From: Bacteroidales bacterium
GTDB taxonomy: Bacteria; Bacteroidota; Bacteroidia; Bacteroidales; P3
DNA length: 64,000 nt
NCBI GenBank assembly: GCA_017647785.1
Contig: JAGCJW010000018.1
Span: forward strand, 1 to 64,000
Reading direction: 5' to 3'
Made by a program: the position numbers and the translations under genes. Positions 3,974 through 16,314 of the stretch are shown piece by piece (position 1 is the first letter of the stretch; each line of letters opens with the position of its first letter). The notes beneath the pieces were generated by a model, which made no database searches, was not told where the DNA came from, and worked only from the letters and a program-made list of their open reading frames with translations.

Positions 3974-5410
3974 ATGATTCTAAGAAATATTTTATTAGAT
4001 CTTGAAGTCATAGAACAAATAGGTAATCTTGATATATCTATTTGTGATATTGTATTTGATTCTCGCAAAGTGCAAGAAGGTAGTCTTTTCGTTGCACAAA
4101 GGGGAACTCAAATTGATGGACATAATTTTATAGAATCAGCTATCAAAGACGGAGCAAAGGCTATTGTATTGGAACAAATGCCAGATAAAATCCAAGATGG
4201 AATAACTTATATAAAAGTAGGTAATTCTGCAAAAGCCTTGGCAATATTAGCAAGAAATTATTACGATAATCCTTCTTCTAAATTAAAATTGATAGGAATA
4301 ACAGGTACTAATGGCAAAACAACAACTGTTACTCTATCTTATAATTTATTCAAAAGTTTAGGTTACGAATGTGGTTTAATTTCTACAATAGTAAATAGGA
4401 TAGGAGATAGAGAAGTAGTATCTACACATACAACTCCAGATGCTTTAAGTTTGAATAAATTGTTGAATGAAATGGTAGAGAATTCTTGCGAATATGTTTT
4501 TATGGAAGTCAGTTCTCACGCAGTAGATCAATATAGAATTTGGGGATTGTCATATTACGGAGGAGTATTCAGTAATATCACTCACGACCATTTAGATTAT
4601 CACAAGACATTTGCTAACTACATAAATGCTAAAAAAGGATTTTTTGATTCATTATCAGCAAAAGCATTTTCTCTTACTAACATAGATGATAAGAATGGTG
4701 AAAAAATGCTTGAATCTACAAAATCTAAGAAATATACTTATAGTTTGAGCAGAATGGCTGACTTTAAAGCTAAAATAATTGAAAATAGCTTTTTTGGCTT
4801 ACTGTTAAACATTAATGGTAAAGAAGTATCTACTCAATTAGTTGGAGAATTTAATGCTTATAATCTTTTAGCAATTTATTCTATAGCGGAATTATGTGGA
4901 TTGAAACAAGAAGAAATATTATTGGGGTTAAGTAAATTAAAAGCAGCTGCAGGTAGATTTGAAACTTATCGTTTGAAAAATGGAGCAGTTGCTATAATAG
5001 ATTATGCCCATACTCCAGATGCTTTGTTTAATGTGATAAGTACTATTAACGAAATTAAACTCGGAGGAAAATTAATAACGCTTGTTGGTTGTGGTGGTAA
5101 TAGAGATAAAACTAAGCGTCCGGAAATGGCAAAGATAGCACAAGAGGGAAGTGATGTTGTTATATTAACATCTGATAATCCTCGCTTTGAAAATCCTGAT
5201 GACATTATTGAGGATATGAAAAAGGGTATTATTGATAACGAATCTTTGTTCTGCATAACTGATAGAAGACAAGCAATTAAGTTAGCTTCGCAATTAGCAA
5301 AAGATAAGAATGATATAATTCTTGTAGCAGGTAAAGGTCACGAAACTTATCAAGAGATAAGTGGAGTAAAACATCATTTTGATGATAAAGAAGAAGTGTT
5401 AAAATATTGA
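3974..5410 (+). CDS. murE: UDP-MurNAc-tripeptide synthetase MurE, meso-DAP type
   Basis: Cytoplasmic ATP-dependent ligase that adds the third amino acid to UDP-MurNAc-L-Ala-D-Glu. The 478-residue protein has all three Mur domains: an N-terminal UMP-binding domain, a central domain with the P-loop GITGTNGKTTT (about 112-122) and a C-terminal domain. The DNPRFENP motif near residue 400 is the signature of meso-diaminopimelate-specific enzymes, so the peptidoglycan should contain DAP. It sits between ftsI and mraY, and all motifs are intact, in contrast to the murD-like gene downstream. Confidence 0.97.
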   Translation: MILRNILLDLEVIEQIGNLDISICDIVFDSRKVQEGSLFVAQRGTQIDGHNFIESAIKDGAKAIVLEQMPDKIQDGITYIKVGNSAKALAILARNYYDNPSSKLKLIGITGTNGKTTTVTLSYNLFKSLGYECGLISTIVNRIGDREVVSTHTTPDALSLNKLLNEMVENSCEYVFMEVSSHAVDQYRIWGLSYYGGVFSNITHDHLDYHKTFANYINAKKGFFDSLSAKAFSLTNIDDKNGEKMLESTKSKKYTYSLSRMADFKAKIIENSFFGLLLNINGKEVSTQLVGEFNAYNLLAIYSIAELCGLKQEEILLGLSKLKAAAGRFETYRLKNGAVAIIDYAHTPDALFNVISTINEIKLGGKLITLVGCGGNRDKTKRPEMAKIAQEGSDVVILTSDNPRFENPDDIIEDMKKGIIDNESLFCITDRRQAIKLASQLAKDKNDIILVAGKGHETYQEISGVKHHFDDKEEVLKY

Positions 5411-5433: not shown

Positions 5434-6687
5434 ATGTTGTATTACTTATTTGATTGGTTACATTCAAGTTTTGATTTGCCTGGGGCTGGGGTGTTTAAGT
5501 ATATTTCATTCCGTGCTGCTGGTGCTGTAATAACATCTTTGCTTATTACAATAGTTTTTGGCAAGAAGCTTATAAATTATTTGCGAATAAAACAGGTTGG
5601 AGAAACTGTAAGAGATTTAGGATTAGAAGGACAAAAAGCAAAAGAAGGTACCCCAACAATGGGAGGACTTATAATATTGGCAGCAATTCTAATTCCAACA
5701 TTATTATTTGCAAAGTTAGATAATATTTATGTGATAATAATGCTGATAACAACTGTTTGGTTAGGAGTGCTAGGGTTTATAGATGATTATATTAAGGTTT
5801 TTAGAAAAAATAAGGCGGGTTTAAGTGGTAAATTGAAGGTTGTAGGACAAGTAATATTGGGTATTGTAGTTGGTTGTATGATGTATTTTCATCCAGATAT
5901 AACAATAAAAGAAAAAACAGAGATAGCACAATATTCAAAACAACACAATTTGCAAGATAAATCGCAGTATGAAAAAGCTAAAGTGGAGTTTCAGGAAGAA
6001 TCTTCTCGCTCTACAAAAACAACTATTCCATTTGTAAAAAACAATGAGTTTGATTATAGCTGGTTAATAAAATGGATAGGAGATAATTATAAGGATTATG
6101 CTTGGTTGATATTTATACCTATTGTAATCTTTTTCATAACGGCTATTTCTAATGGGGCAAATCTCACAGACGGAATAGACGGATTGGCGACGGGGACATC
6201 TGCAATAATTGGAGCTTGTTTAGCAGTGCTTGCATGGGTATCAGGTAATATAATATTCGCCAACTACCTAAATATAATGTATATACCGAATGTTGGAGAA
6301 TTAACAATTTTTATTGCAGCTTTTGTTGGTGCTACTATGGGATTTCTTTGGTACAACACACACCCTGCTCAAATTTTTATGGGCGATACAGGTTCATTGG
6401 CAATAGGCGGAATAATTGCAGTATTTGCGATTTTGATAAGAAAAGAGTTGTTAATACCAATTCTATGTGGTGTTTTCATAGTAGAAAATCTTTCAGTTGT
6501 AATGCAGGTTTCTTACTTCAAATACACAAAGAAGAAATATGGAGAAGGTAGAAGAATCTTTCTTATGTCCCCATTACATCATCATTACCAAAAGAAGGGT
6601 TATCCAGAACAAAAAATAGTTCAAAGATTCTTTATAATTTCTATAATTTTAGCAGTAACCACAATAGTAACACTTAAATTAAGATAG
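5434..6687 (+). CDS. mraY: Phospho-MurNAc-pentapeptide transferase MraY
   Basis: Integral membrane enzyme that transfers phospho-MurNAc-pentapeptide to undecaprenyl phosphate to make lipid I. Many hydrophobic helices are evident in the 417 residues. Conserved motifs are GTPTMGG near 72, [10 protein letters not shown] near 112, [10 protein letters not shown] near 244 and the C-terminal [10 protein letters not shown]. Between the second and third motif is a polar insertion of about 50 residues rich in Lys, Glu and Gln, which explains the length above the 360-residue E. coli protein and is usual in Bacteroidota. Only one base separates its stop from the murD-like gene. Confidence 0.96.
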
Positions 6688-6688
6688 A

Positions 6689-7222
6689 ATGACTATAGAT
6701 AAGTTAGCAACACAGGGAAGAGTAATATATGCAAATTTAGCTGCAAGACAATATTCGGAGATTTCGCGTTTAAGAAACGAAACTTTGAAGAGTATGTTTG
6801 CAGGTAAAGAAAGTTTTAATCATAAGCAAGAAGTCATAGCAACTATAAAGGGGGTGAGGTATATAGATGACTCTAAGAGTATAAATCCTAATGCAACGTG
6901 GTTTACTTTTGAAAGAATAGGTAATCCTATAATATGGATACTAGAAATAGAAAATTATGATGAAAATTTTGTATCTCTAATTAATCTTGTAAAAGAAAAA
7001 GTACACACATTAATCATAGTAGGTGAAAGAGATAATAAAGTGTCAAGAGTGTTTAATGGTTTGACGAATCTCATACAAGTATCAAATTTGGCAGAAGCAG
7101 TTGGCATGGCTTACTATTTTGCTAACGAACCTGATGTTGTTGTGTATTCTCCTGCGAATGGTAGCGAAGAAAATATAGAATATAATGCAAATAGGTTTTT
7201 GCAATTAGTTAATGAATTGTAA
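6689..7222 (+). CDS. Truncated, degenerate MurD-like protein (C-terminal domain only)
   Basis: This gene sits exactly where murD belongs, between mraY and ftsW, but encodes only 177 residues; MurD is about 450. It aligns with the end of the central domain and the C-terminal (glutamate-binding) domain: QGRVIYANLAA matches the usual QGxHNxxNxxAA, and IDDSKSINPNAT (59-70) the DSKATNxxAT motif. The UDP-binding domain and the P-loop domain are absent. Other hallmarks are lost too: the HN pair (now VIYAN), the GGxDKG loop (now EIENYDE at 86-92), and the SPACASFDxF segment (now SPANGSEENIEY at 154-165). It cannot by itself be a D-glutamate ligase. The frame is intact and tightly packed in the operon, so it is probably translated. 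A true murD must lie elsewhere. Confidence 0.85.
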   Translation: MTIDKLATQGRVIYANLAARQYSEISRLRNETLKSMFAGKESFNHKQEVIATIKGVRYIDDSKSINPNATWFTFERIGNPIIWILEIENYDENFVSLINLVKEKVHTLIIVGERDNKVSRVFNGLTNLIQVSNLAEAVGMAYYFANEPDVVVYSPANGSEENIEYNANRFLQLVNEL

Positions 7223-7229
7223 GAAATAA

Positions 7230-8432
7230 ATGAAACTTAAATTAGGTAAACCACAAATAAAAGGTGATAAAGTTATATGGATAGTATATTTAGTACTATC
7301 AGTTTTGTCATTGATATTTGTATTTAGTAGCATGGGTAAGGTAGTGTATCACACAAATGGTGATATAACAAGAATGTTTATAAAACAAGTTGGTATTATT
7401 GTCGGAGGTATTGCTCTAACATATTTTGTGCACCATTTTAAATATACTACTTATAAACGCTTTAAGAATACAGGTTATGGTTTCTCTCTTTTTTTACTAT
7501 CGATTACTTTGTTAATTGGAGGTTTATTTGGGAAAGCTGCAAATCGTTGGTTAGAATTACCAATAATAGGACAATTGCAACCTTCAGAAATAGTAAAATA
7601 TATTTTGATAGTATATGTAGCAGCAGAACTTTCAGAATTAAAAAGTAAAATAAAAGATAAGGTAGAATTTTGGAAACTGGTTGGGAAAATAGTTTTGGTT
7701 TGTGGCCTAATTGTACTAGAAAACTTTTCAACAGCATTTATTATATTTTTAGCTTGTTTCTTATTACTATTCATTGGTGGAGCAAGATTTAAATATCTGT
7801 TACTTATTGTTTCTTTTGGACTGCTTGTTGTTCTAGGCTTTGCAGGAGCAGATGCTTTAGGTATTGAAATAGGAAGAAACTTTACTTGGGTAAATAGAGT
7901 AGAATCATTTTTGAATAATGACCCTAATGAAGCTAATCAATATAATTATGCTATAATGGCAATAGCAACGGGTGGTACTATGGGAGTTGGAATAGGTAAT
8001 ACTGTTATGGCGAGATTTTTAAGTGAATCACATAACGATTTTATTTTTTCTGTGATACTAGAACAAGGAGGAATATTTATATGTATTTTAATACTTTTAG
8101 CTTATTTCATATTATTTTATAGATGCTTACTTGTGTCAAGAGAGGCTAAAGGATTGTTCGGAGCTTATGCGGCAGCAGGTATATCTTTTGTAATAATTAT
8201 TCAAGCTTTAATAAATATGATTGTAGCGACAGGACTGTCGCCTATCACAGGACAAACTCTTCCTTTCCTTAGTTATGGTGGTACATCGTTTTTAATAAGT
8301 AGTTTTGCGATAGGAATTATTCTTAATATAAGTGCAGAGAGTAAAAAAGCTATAGAAGAAGAACAGCATCCAACAACGGACGTTGTTGAAAAAAATTCAG
8401 AAATAGATAATACAAATAATAACGAAATATGA
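7230..8432 (+). CDS. ftsW: Lipid II polymerase FtsW (SEDS family)
   Basis: Multi-pass membrane glycosyltransferase of the SEDS family that polymerises lipid II at the septum with FtsI. The 400 residues carry about ten hydrophobic helices and the family signature near the end, GLSPITGQTLPFLSYGGTS, together with LQPSEIVKYILIVY near residue 112. A polar C-terminal tail of about 25 residues, rich in Glu and Asn, follows the last helix. It starts 7 nt after the murD-like gene and overlaps murG by 4 nt (ATGA). Placement beside murG and ftsQ favours FtsW over RodA. Confidence 0.95.
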   Translation: MKLKLGKPQIKGDKVIWIVYLVLSVLSLIFVFSSMGKVVYHTNGDITRMFIKQVGIIVGGIALTYFVHHFKYTTYKRFKNTGYGFSLFLLSITLLIGGLFGKAANRWLELPIIGQLQPSEIVKYILIVYVAAELSELKSKIKDKVEFWKLVGKIVLVCGLIVLENFSTAFIIFLACFLLLFIGGARFKYLLLIVSFGLLVVLGFAGADALGIEIGRNFTWVNRVESFLNNDPNEANQYNYAIMAIATGGTMGVGIGNTVMARFLSESHNDFIFSVILEQGGIFICILILLAYFILFYRCLLVSREAKGLFGAYAAAGISFVIIIQALINMIVATGLSPITGQTLPFLSYGGTSFLISSFAIGIILNISAESKKAIEEEQHPTTDVVEKNSEIDNTNNNEI

Positions 8433-9535
8433 AAGTAATAATAAGTGGAGGAGGAACAGGAGGACATATATTCCCTGCGATATCAATAGCGAATGCATTA
8501 AAAAATAAATATAAAGATGCAGAGATATTATTTGTAGGAGCAAAAGGAAAAATGGAAATGCAAAAAGTTCCACAAGCAGGATATGAAATAATCGGCTTGC
8601 CTGTTGCTGGATTTCAAAGAAAAAAGTTATGGAAAAACATTTCTTTTCCTTTTAAGTTGCTTTCTTCTATGATGAAGGCTAAGAAAATAGTGAAATCTTT
8701 TTCTCCAGATATAGTGATAGGAGTTGGAGGTTATGCTTCAGGACCAATACTACGTTCTGCAGTATCACAAAAAGTGCCAACACTAATTCAAGAGCAAAAC
8801 TCATATCCTGGAGTTACAAATAAGATTTTAGCTGACGGTGTAAATAGAATATGTGTTGCTTATGAAAATATGGATAGATGGTTTCCTGAAAACAAAATAG
8901 TTTTTACGGGTAATCCTATACGTCAAAATATATCAGCTTTACAAGAAAATCAAATAGAATTAATTGCAAAAGCACAAGAAACATTCGGATTTACAAAAGA
9001 TAAACCTGTGGTTTTAGTAGTAGGAGGAAGTTTGGGTGCATTGACAATAAATGAGAGTATAATCAATCACCTTGACTACTTTATAAAAAATGATATACAG
9101 CTAATATGGCAAACAGGCAAGTGGTTTTATGAAAAAGCTAAAGAAACGGTTTCAAGATTAAATTCAACTAATATAAGAGTCTATGAATTTATTTTTGAAA
9201 TGGATCAAGCTTATTCTTTGTCTGATGTAATCATATCAAGAGCAGGAGCTATTGCTATTTCAGAATTATGTGTTGTAGGTAAACCTTGTATTCTTGTTCC
9301 TTCGCCAAATGTGTCTGAAGATCATCAAACGAAGAATGCAAATACATTGGTGTCAAAATCTGCTGCAGTAATGGTAAAAGACATTGAGGCAAGGGAAAAA
9401 TTAATAGAAGAGTTAGATAAAATAATTAATAGTCCAAGTTTACAGAAAGAAATGTCTGAAAACATTGTTCAGCTTGGAATTAGAGATGCTGATAAAAGAA
9501 TAGTGGAACAAATAGAAAATATACTTGGTAAATAA
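8429..9535 (+). CDS. murG: UDP-GlcNAc:lipid I transferase MurG
   Basis: Peripheral membrane GT28 glycosyltransferase that converts lipid I to lipid II. The 368-residue product has the glycine-rich start SGGGTGGHIFPA (6-17), GVGGYASGP near 95, the acceptor-site segment QEQNSYPGVTN, and the UDP-GlcNAc-binding C-terminal half with GGSLGA near 197 and SRAGAIAISEL near 270. Length is normal. It overlaps ftsW by 4 nt and is followed one base later by murC, consistent with a single operon. Confidence 0.97.
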   Translation: MKVIISGGGTGGHIFPAISIANALKNKYKDAEILFVGAKGKMEMQKVPQAGYEIIGLPVAGFQRKKLWKNISFPFKLLSSMMKAKKIVKSFSPDIVIGVGGYASGPILRSAVSQKVPTLIQEQNSYPGVTNKILADGVNRICVAYENMDRWFPENKIVFTGNPIRQNISALQENQIELIAKAQETFGFTKDKPVVLVVGGSLGALTINESIINHLDYFIKNDIQLIWQTGKWFYEKAKETVSRLNSTNIRVYEFIFEMDQAYSLSDVIISRAGAIAISELCVVGKPCILVPSPNVSEDHQTKNANTLVSKSAAVMVKDIEAREKLIEELDKIINSPSLQKEMSENIVQLGIRDADKRIVEQIENILGK

Positions 9536-9536
9536 A

Positions 9537-10889
9537 ATGGATAAAAAAACGTATTACTTCGTAGGTATAGGAGGAATAGGAATGAGTGCTATAGCTCGTT
9601 ATTTGAATAATAACGGGCATAAGGTTTATGGATATGATAGGACACGAACACAATTAAGTATTCAACTTGAAGAAGAAGGAATGCAAATAATCTATGAAGA
9701 TAATCCAAATCATTTGCCAGAGAATATTGATTTAGCAATATATACACCTGCAATTCCTGTAGATAATCAAATATTGAAAACAATAAAAGAAAGAAACATT
9801 AAATTAGAAAAAAGAGCTATAGCTTTATCGGAAATAATAAAAGAAAAGAAGGTAATAGCAATATCTGGAACTCATGGAAAAACTACAACATCTGGATTGC
9901 TTGCGCATTTATTGCATAGTAGTAAAATAGGTTGCTCAGCCTTTTTAGGAGGAATAACAAATAATTATTCTACTAATATGCTCTATAATGCAAACTCAGA
10001 TTATGTGATAGTAGAAGCAGATGAATATGATAGATCTTTTTTACAACTTACCCCATACGTTTCAGCAATAACATCAATATCGGCAGATCATTTAGATATA
10101 TACGAAAACAAGGAAAATTTAGAACAAGCCTTTGCTCAATTTGCTAATCAAACAAAACAAGAAGGGAGAATCTTCCTTAAAAAAGGGCTAAGTATAGAGC
10201 CAAAAGACTCAATAAAGACTCATACATACTCTCTTACAGATATAGAATCTGAATATTATGCTTGGAATATAAGAGTAAGTAAAGAAAGTTATTATTTTGA
10301 CTATCACACACCAGAGAAAGTTTATTATGATATGCAGATGACTTATCCCGGTATTCACAATATAGAAAATGCAATACTTGCTTTATCAATAGCAATAAAT
10401 CTTGGTGTAAGTGAATATGAACTAAGAGCTTCTCTAAAAACTTTCAAAGGAATGAAGCGAAGATTTGACTTGCAACTAAAAACACAAGATACAATATACT
10501 ATGATGATTACGCTCATCACCCAGAAGAAATTGAAGCAACAATAACATCATTAAAGCACTTGCATCCAAATAAAAGAATATGTGGTATTTTCCAACCACA
10601 TTTGTATTCAAGGACAAGGGATTTTGCAGATGAATTTGCAAGAGCATTAGAACATTTAGACGATATAATATTAATACCTATTTATCCAGCAAGAGAAGAA
10701 CCAATAGTAGGAATAACTTCTAAAACTATTTTACACAAGATAAATAAAATGGATAAATATCATGTAACAAAAGAGCAGCTATTTCCATTGTTATCTGCAC
10801 TTCAACCACAACTATTAGTTACACTTGGAGCTGGTGATATAGACCAATTAGTAGAACCAATAACCCAATTTTTAAAAGATAATGAATAA
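9537..10889 (+). CDS. murC: UDP-MurNAc-L-alanine ligase MurC
   Basis: ATP-dependent ligase adding L-Ala to UDP-MurNAc, the first step of stem-peptide assembly. The 450-residue protein has all three Mur domains: GIGGIGMSAIA near residue 10 (nucleotide-sugar binding), the P-loop SGTHGKTTTSG near 109-119, EADEYDRSF near 160, and a C-terminal domain with YDDYAHHPEEI near 320. Start ATG 9537 is preferred to TTG 9525 because it gives the canonical MurC start and avoids overlap with the murG stop. It overlaps ftsQ by 8 nt. All catalytic motifs are intact. Confidence 0.96.
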   Translation: MDKKTYYFVGIGGIGMSAIARYLNNNGHKVYGYDRTRTQLSIQLEEEGMQIIYEDNPNHLPENIDLAIYTPAIPVDNQILKTIKERNIKLEKRAIALSEIIKEKKVIAISGTHGKTTTSGLLAHLLHSSKIGCSAFLGGITNNYSTNMLYNANSDYVIVEADEYDRSFLQLTPYVSAITSISADHLDIYENKENLEQAFAQFANQTKQEGRIFLKKGLSIEPKDSIKTHTYSLTDIESEYYAWNIRVSKESYYFDYHTPEKVYYDMQMTYPGIHNIENAILALSIAINLGVSEYELRASLKTFKGMKRRFDLQLKTQDTIYYDDYAHHPEEIEATITSLKHLHPNKRICGIFQPHLYSRTRDFADEFARALEHLDDIILIPIYPAREEPIVGITSKTILHKINKMDKYHVTKEQLFPLLSALQPQLLVTLGAGDIDQLVEPITQFLKDNE

Positions 10890-15220: not shown

Positions 15221-15227
15221 AAACAAT

Positions 15228-16314
15228 ATGACAGCAGACGAAGCAATAAAAACCTTTCAAGAAAGAGTAGCAACTCTAAGGAGGTGTCTTTGACGTAGAT
15301 TCACTACAAAAAGACATAGAACAATCACAAGAAGAAACACAAGCTGAATACTTTTGGCAAGACCCAAAAGAAGCAGAGAAGTTTCTAAAACAACTCAGCG
15401 AGAAAAAAAATAAATTACAATCCTTTCTTATAGTAAATACAGCATTAGAAGATTTCCAAGTTTTAAAAGAGTTCTATGATGAAGGCTCAGTAGAAGAAAC
15501 CGAAATACAACAAAACATAGATACACTTAATACAGAAATAGAAAACTTGGAATTTAAAAATATGCTATCATCCGAAGAAGATAGACTTTCTGCAATAGTA
15601 ACAATCAATGCAGGAGCAGGAGGGACAGAATCCTGCGATTGGGCAAGTATGCTAATGCGAATGTACACACGTTGGGCAGAAAAAAACAGCTATAAACTTT
15701 CGCAAATAGACTACCAAGAAGGCGATGTAGCAGGAGTAAAAAGCGTAAGCTTTGAAATAGAAGGGGAATACGCGTACGGATATCTAAAAGGAGAAAGTGG
15801 AGTCCACCGTTTAGTAAGACAATCACCCTTTAATGCTGCCAACAAACGTCAAACCTCCTTTGCATCAGTTTATGTTTATCCAATAATAGACGAAAACATA
15901 GAAATCAATATCAATCCCGCAGATATAGAATGGGATACATTCCGTTCATCAGGGCCAGGAGGGCAAAACGTAAACAAAGTAGAAACAGCAGTACGTTTAA
16001 GATATAAACCTGAAAACATAGTAATAGAGTGCCAACAAACCCGTTCGCAACTCCAAAACCGTGAAAAAGCAATGCAAATGCTACGTTCACAACTATACGA
16101 AATGGAGATGAGAAAGAAGAAAGAAAAAATAGCTGAAATAGAAGGTAACAAAAAGAAAATAGAATGGGGAAGTCAAATCCGTAACTATGTATTACATCCA
16201 TATAAATTAGTAAAAGACGTAAGAACGAACGTAGAAACGACCGATACAGCGGCAGTACTTGACGGAGAATTAGAAGCCTTTATAAAAGCCTTTCTTATGG
16301 AATACGGAGGCTAA
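15228..16314 (+). CDS. prfB: Peptide chain release factor 2 (RF2), programmed +1 frameshift
   Basis: Release factor decoding UGA and UAA stops. The gene is in two frames: 21 codons from ATG 15228 to CTT, an in-frame TGA at 15291-15293, then a +1 shift into GAC at 15292 that is open to 16314. Together they give 361 residues, the normal RF2 length. The second part carries the stop-codon recognition tripeptide SPF ([12 protein letters not shown]) and the GGQ hydrolysis loop [11 protein letters not shown]. The bipartite arrangement is the classic RF2 autoregulatory switch and not a mutation. The gene closes the long dcw-dut run and is followed by a terminator. Confidence 0.97.
15279..15294 (+). 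promoter_or_regulatory. RF2 autoregulatory +1 frameshift site
   Basis: An internal Shine-Dalgarno sequence AGGAGG (15279-15284) sits 3 nt before the slippery CTT, followed by TGA and C (CTTTGAC). This matches the conserved RF2 frameshift cassette in spacing and sequence. When RF2 is scarce, slow termination at UGA lets the ribosome slip to the +1 frame and make more RF2. It is one of the few strong anti-Shine-Dalgarno matches in this window. Confidence 0.95.

Follow-up and report, generated by a model that had tools for sequence, protein, structure and literature searches.

A conserved stand-alone MurD C-terminal domain in the dcw cluster of Bacteroidales whose MurD reaction appears to have passed to MurD2 and MurL homologues

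MurD is a textbook essential enzyme and a drug target. A variant of its reaction is described in Xanthomonas, where L-Glu is added by MurD2 and subsequently epimerised by MurL, with Glu and Arg at the positions of Asp182 and Lys348 of E. coli MurD (E. coli numbering taken from the same source) acting as the MurD2 determinants (PMC8788868). The taxa listed for this pair are some Proteobacteria and Actinobacteria only, Bacteroidales not being among them, and the review mentions no leftover murD domain (PMC8788868). In other bacteria, Mur ligases bind MurG and MreB (PMC6420597) as well as FtsW, FtsQ and FtsZ (PMC3605390). Genes within genes, in which a C-terminal domain is translated from an in-frame internal start, are known from Rpn L/S and Cas10d/Cas11d (PMC10327210). 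A literature search for stand-alone or truncated MurD gave nothing relevant.

The window analysed here, a stretch of 64,000 nucleotides, belongs to a Candidatus Onthomorpha-like Bacteroidales MAG of 1.94 Mb, estimated as 100% complete. It carries a dcw cluster of Bacteroidetes-type order, with genes named from sequence reading: mraZ, rsmH, ftsL-like, ftsI, murE (3974..5410), mraY (5434..6687), the gene in the murD slot, ftsW (7230..8432), murG (8429..9535), murC (9525..10889), ftsQ, ftsA and ftsZ, those with coordinates lying on the + strand and murE and murC both cross-matching the MurD profile. The slot holds a 177-aa gene for a stand-alone MurD C-terminal domain (6689..7222, + strand), referred to as MurD-C and recognised by its profile match, its intact state in relatives and its dN/dS. 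The frame is open and begins 1 nt past mraY, whose stop is at 6687, with 7 nt separating its end from ftsW (7230), in agreement with the packing described in the initial annotation.

MurD-C matches the MurD profile TIGR01087 at positions 288-421 of 441 only (E 2.5e-19; 69.7 bits, cut-off 211.95), and Mur_ligase_C gives a sub-threshold match; the Mur_ligase N and M domains and the P-loop are absent from it in profile searches. In alignments, its N-terminal ~44 residues cover the final strand and helix of the MurD central domain, and they begin with the motif MTIDKLATQG (aa 1-10, 6689..6718, + strand), which corresponds to a segment of full-length MurD that opens with an internal Met. The C-domain fold follows (aa 45-177, 6821..7219, + strand), with degenerate catalytic loops and with W71, W83, I84 and D61 kept. 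GGxDKG is replaced by EIENYD and SPACASFD by SPANGS, and the D-Glu residues (K348 and the SPACASF motif) are lost; motifs other than the 182/348 positions are presumed to bind ATP or D-Glu, an assignment taken from general MurD knowledge. The earlier description of a MurD tail running from the end of the central domain, devoid of the UDP- and ATP-binding domains and of both motifs, is borne out. MurD-C is orthologous to MurD by position between mraY and ftsW, C-domain sequence, tree and fold, but it is not a ligase, because the UDP-MurNAc and ATP domains, the P-loop and the D-Glu residues are missing.

The AlphaFold2 model of MurD-C, built from an alignment of 39 relatives, has a pLDDT of 79, with ~88 in the core, below 50 in residues 1-14 and ~60 in the helix that comes next. 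Its matches among solved MurDs are to their C-domain (7sir, E 1.1e-10; 7u35, TM 0.70, rmsd 2.0 A), and MurD-C is accordingly modelled as retaining the MurD C-domain fold.

The initial annotation had proposed that the catalytic MurD is encoded elsewhere or that its step is performed by another ligase, and the genome search favours the latter. One other full MurD homologue is present in the window genome, forming the C-terminal half of an 876-aa ORF (G000:C12; L001:1489-4119) whose N-terminal half is a MurL homologue, and this murL-murD2 fusion lies on a different contig from the dcw cluster. The MurL half matches NF041275 at positions 64-438 of 447 with 257.8 bits (E 1.4e-76), the 700-bit cut-off being that of a Xanthomonadales equivalog; judged by this profile, it is a homologue outside that equivalog. 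The MurD2 half carries Glu and Arg at the 182/348 positions (EEH and GGMDR in L001), and no TIGR00067 match to MurI is found in the genome. Across MurD2s, the 182 position is Glu in 20/21 and the 348 position Arg in 21/21, against Asp and Lys in 44/44 dcw MurDs. As in Xanthomonas, both homologues and the L-Glu determinants are present and MurI is not (PMC8788868); unlike there, the window's genus and several more genera of its family fuse the two into a single protein of 876-943 aa, but in the rest of the family and of the order they are encoded separately.

Among 295 evenly sampled Bacteroidales genomes, 95 contain MurL and 186 have MurI above cut-off, with no overlap between the two seen; the weak MurI matches in MurL genomes fit the wider Asp/Glu racemase family. 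From these gene contents and residues, the MurL and MurD2 pair appears to have replaced MurD chemistry. Many MurL genomes without MurI (G049, G076, G220 and others; L016, L075-L097) encode a full-length dcw MurD together with a separate MurD2. That these full-length dcw MurDs are dead enzymes was considered and rejected, as their P-loop, DKGNDY and SPACASFD are intact and all D-Glu-type residues, including the D/K pair, are retained. A murD split into two pieces, with the N-terminal half elsewhere in the window genome, was also rejected: the 195-aa N-terminal match in L007, at a contig end, is of MurC/Mpl type. This ORF (L007:1480-2064) is a third MurC/Mpl-type ligase, whose gene begins at the extreme edge of contig 34 and is broken off there. 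MurF is present twice in the same genome, once on its own and once fused to alanine racemase (L003:1366-2736, L006:1009-3582).

The truncated gene is widespread among relatives. An intact MurD-C ORF occurs at the same place in 40/40 readable mraY-ftsW gaps, which excludes chance; this first survey covered the window genome, every readable member of its family and representatives of another four families, most of them MAGs; the window's genus itself includes Candidatus Onthomorpha intestinigallinarum and other gut MAGs. These ORFs span 161-194 aa and start with ATG, with one (G011) reaching a contig end. The distance from the mraY stop to the MurD-C start is mostly 1-80 nt and that from its end to ftsW mostly <50 nt, an ftsW homologue lying downstream in nearly all relatives. 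MurD-C is also intact in 16 further genomes read after this survey. Some MurD-C matches appeared to contain stops, but only because the search extended past the mraY stop into upstream sequence, and the ORFs are unbroken. By a manual count from the survey outputs, the 95 MurL genomes of the order sample comprise 40 with a truncated gene, 51 with a full-length dcw MurD, three whose assembly lacks the region and one with a broken cluster. No truncated dcw murD occurs in the subset of MurI genomes whose frame length was listed, the one short case (G178) looking like a contig break. In the MurL genome with the broken cluster (G110, L102; 91% complete), mraY is flanked by an ApbE-like gene and kdsB, and a MurD C-domain was not found, suggesting that the MurD-C gene may be dispensable.

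MurD-C is under purifying selection and is neither an artefact nor a product of decay. Comparison of close pairs gives it a dN/dS of 0.009-0.15, in most cases lower than that of ftsW in the same pair, with a normal dS similar to that of ftsW; within families, truncated-full and full-full pairs both give ~0.1. Constraint on residues 1-14 is equal to that on the remainder (0.083 vs 0.096). A slowly decaying pseudogene or an assembly deletion could account for the lost catalytic motifs and the slight variation in length, but the same ORF recurs in independent assemblies from many animals and sites, and neutral decay and sequencing deletion are both refuted because the frame is unbroken in all relatives read and dN/dS is far <1, leaving this explanation practically no probability. 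The suggestion that the remnant was kept for another purpose is upheld by the same evidence. Retention in cis, with the gene serving as a translational coupler or spacer for mraY and ftsW and its protein being irrelevant, would fit the tight packing against both neighbours, but it requires neither the observed amino-acid conservation (dN/dS 0.01-0.15 at ftsW-like dS) nor an invariant W71 in 67 sequences; it is largely refuted and regarded as very improbable.

The pattern of residues kept and lost indicates what is being preserved. Many of the 67 truncated proteins have lost HN..N, Lys63, Thr65, GG-DKG and CASFD, which are required for catalysis and do not vary among 44 full MurDs. Conversely, Trp71 is retained in 67/67, Ile84 in 66/67, and Trp83 and Asp61 in 65/67 each, along with Ala137, Lys104, Phe170 and Val174. 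The N-terminal motif is also shared, with M in 51/54, E4 in 48/63, L6 in 52/63, A7 in 48/63, Q9 in 51/64 and G10 in 47/64. With catalytic residues lost and others retained, the protein is evidently kept, but not for ligase chemistry. S154-P155 stay conserved and, like D61, are located in active-site loops of MurD, and several young truncations retain all motifs; a C-domain that still binds a ligand, for instance to sense a nucleotide or UDP-MurNAc-peptide, would be consistent with both features. This is nevertheless quite unlikely, given that Lys63, Thr65, GG-DKG and CASFD are lost in older lineages with constraint elsewhere undiminished.

Beyond what the initial annotation had noticed, the truncation recurs across Bacteroidales and starts at a conserved internal Met. 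On the mraY protein tree (49 rows), under the assumption that mraY and the neighbouring murD share their history, the truncated state requires eight changes, at least five of them forced by well-supported branches, and grouping all truncated forms in one clade is rejected (p 9.7e-56). Families f4, f6, f49 and f110 (labels of the search tool) each contain both truncated and full-length members. In the C-domain tree, all truncated sequences fall among the dcw MurDs, apart from a monophyletic MurD2; this short sequence alone forces no more than one truncation. A single ancient truncation, on which the C-domain by itself is undecided, is therefore rejected by the mraY tree, which shows recurrence in at least five lineages. 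One residue, an internal Met of MurD, is the start of nearly all truncated genes, and a length of exactly 182 aa is shared by most truncated proteins from families other than the window's.

In full-length MurDs, this Met is present in 25/25 from MurL genomes (including G269, which has no MurL match itself but is of a MurL family), in 28/29 (97%) from MurI genomes and in only 5/34 from outside Bacteroidales. Being conserved in MurI genomes as well, the Met by itself proves nothing. The residues that follow it are more telling: the share of the commonest residue in full MurDs of MurL versus MurI genomes is 0.92 vs 0.45 for Thr2, 0.88 vs 0.24 for Glu4, 1.0 vs 0.69 for Ala7 and 0.96 vs 0.38 for Gln9, at alike overall identity (0.597 vs 0.612). 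Across the 427 ten-residue windows along full MurD, excess conservation in MurL over MurI genomes is highest for residues 1-10 from the Met (top windows +2, -1 and +1; z 3.6), and no comparable excess is seen just upstream of the Met in full MurDs of MurL genomes. At the nucleotide level, mRNA structure in MurL genomes is at its lowest among 190 positions around the Met codon (-1.55 vs a mean of -6.43 kcal/mol), the signal being present but weaker in MurI genomes (rank 8). An A stands at -3 of the codon in 20/25 full murD genes of MurL genomes, within an A-rich segment.

Taken from sequence, this pattern looks like an internal translation start. The A-rich unstructured segment may just reflect an Asn/Ile/Lys-rich loop, which could explain part of the nucleotide signal, and the strand at the Met could alternatively have gained a docking role in the MurL clade. 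Given these alternatives, internal translation is an inference. The logic would be that of the described genes within genes, a C-terminal domain arising from an in-frame internal Met, with the differences that internal translation is deduced here and that the outer gene is gone in the truncated lineages (PMC10327210). That murD of MurL-using Bacteroidales is, or used to be, such a gene within a gene, encoding a D-Glu ligase and an internal-ATG C-domain protein with a non-catalytic role in division and wall synthesis, the latter spared by repeated independent deletions, is a serious but tentative proposal, rated slightly short of even.

The favoured explanation, held with somewhat more assurance than doubt, is that MurD-C is a protein in its own right without catalytic function, that an internal start probably once gave rise to it, and that it likely acts as a scaffold, its inner gene having been kept by the deletions. 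In the ancestor of MurL-using Bacteroidales, glutamate addition would have passed to MurD2 as L-Glu ligase and MurL as epimerase, with loss of MurI. The dcw murD would then have carried two loads, a ligase part made redundant by this takeover and a C-domain product with a role of its own, whose translation probably began at the conserved internal ATG. Deletions then removed the ligase part in five or more lineages, that of Onthomorpha included, and left the inner gene starting at the same Met. Of these steps, the presence of MurD2-MurL and the loss of MurI are shown by gene content and the repeated deletion by mraY, and retention of the inner gene is likewise shown; redundancy of the ligase part is deduced, and the scaffold role is a hypothesis. 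Since the fold and the M-T-I/L-E-x-L-A-x-Q-G strand are kept and the ATP and D-Glu residues are lost, a docking or scaffold subunit is the most likely function. Docking may involve the N-terminal strand and the conserved surface of MurD-C, with the partner belonging to the dcw-encoded precursor or division machinery; MraY, MurG, FtsW or other Mur enzymes are candidates guessed from gene context. A MurD domain contacting this machinery would resemble the described Mur complexes, which include a MurG scaffold and MurD-MurG and Mur-FtsW contacts, with the contact proposed here made by only the non-catalytic domain, whereas whole enzymes are involved there (PMC6420597, PMC3605390).

The partner could instead be MurL-MurD2 itself, MurD-C acting as its regulatory or assembly subunit, for example by stabilising MurD2 or channelling UDP-MurNAc-L-Ala-Glu, and never having had an internal start. 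Truncation is seen in MurL genomes only and the N-terminal motif is tightest there, as such a role would predict; however, MurD2 is full length with its own C-domain, murL-murD2 and dcw lie on separate contigs in the window genome, and constraint starts exactly at a Met. One genome (G051, 98% complete) further weakens this reading, which is considered unlikely: it retains a 170-aa MurD C-domain ORF (L058:309-818) and has MurC, MurE and MurF matches, but MurD, MurL and MurI were not found in a whole-genome search, reflecting either an assembly gap or another way to add glutamate.

The scaffold explanation bears on how MurD is understood. Across a large part of Bacteroidales, MurD2-MurL appears to have taken over the MurD reaction, and in these mostly uncultured gut bacteria the catalytic two-thirds of murD was deleted repeatedly with the tail kept. 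A tail preserved though another enzyme pair appears catalytic probably has a second, non-catalytic cell-wall job. Truncation would separate MurD chemistry from this unrecognised role, providing a natural separation-of-function system and making structural roles of Mur ligases in the divisome or precursor complex directly testable. Were the gene-within-gene proposal true, the C-domain would be a new cell-wall subunit and may operate inside intact murD genes too.

Elsewhere in the window, prfB (release factor 2, 15226-16314) contains the classic in-frame stop, its slip site CTTTGA following AAGGAGGTG, and synthesis of full release factor 2 therefore requires a programmed +1 frameshift.
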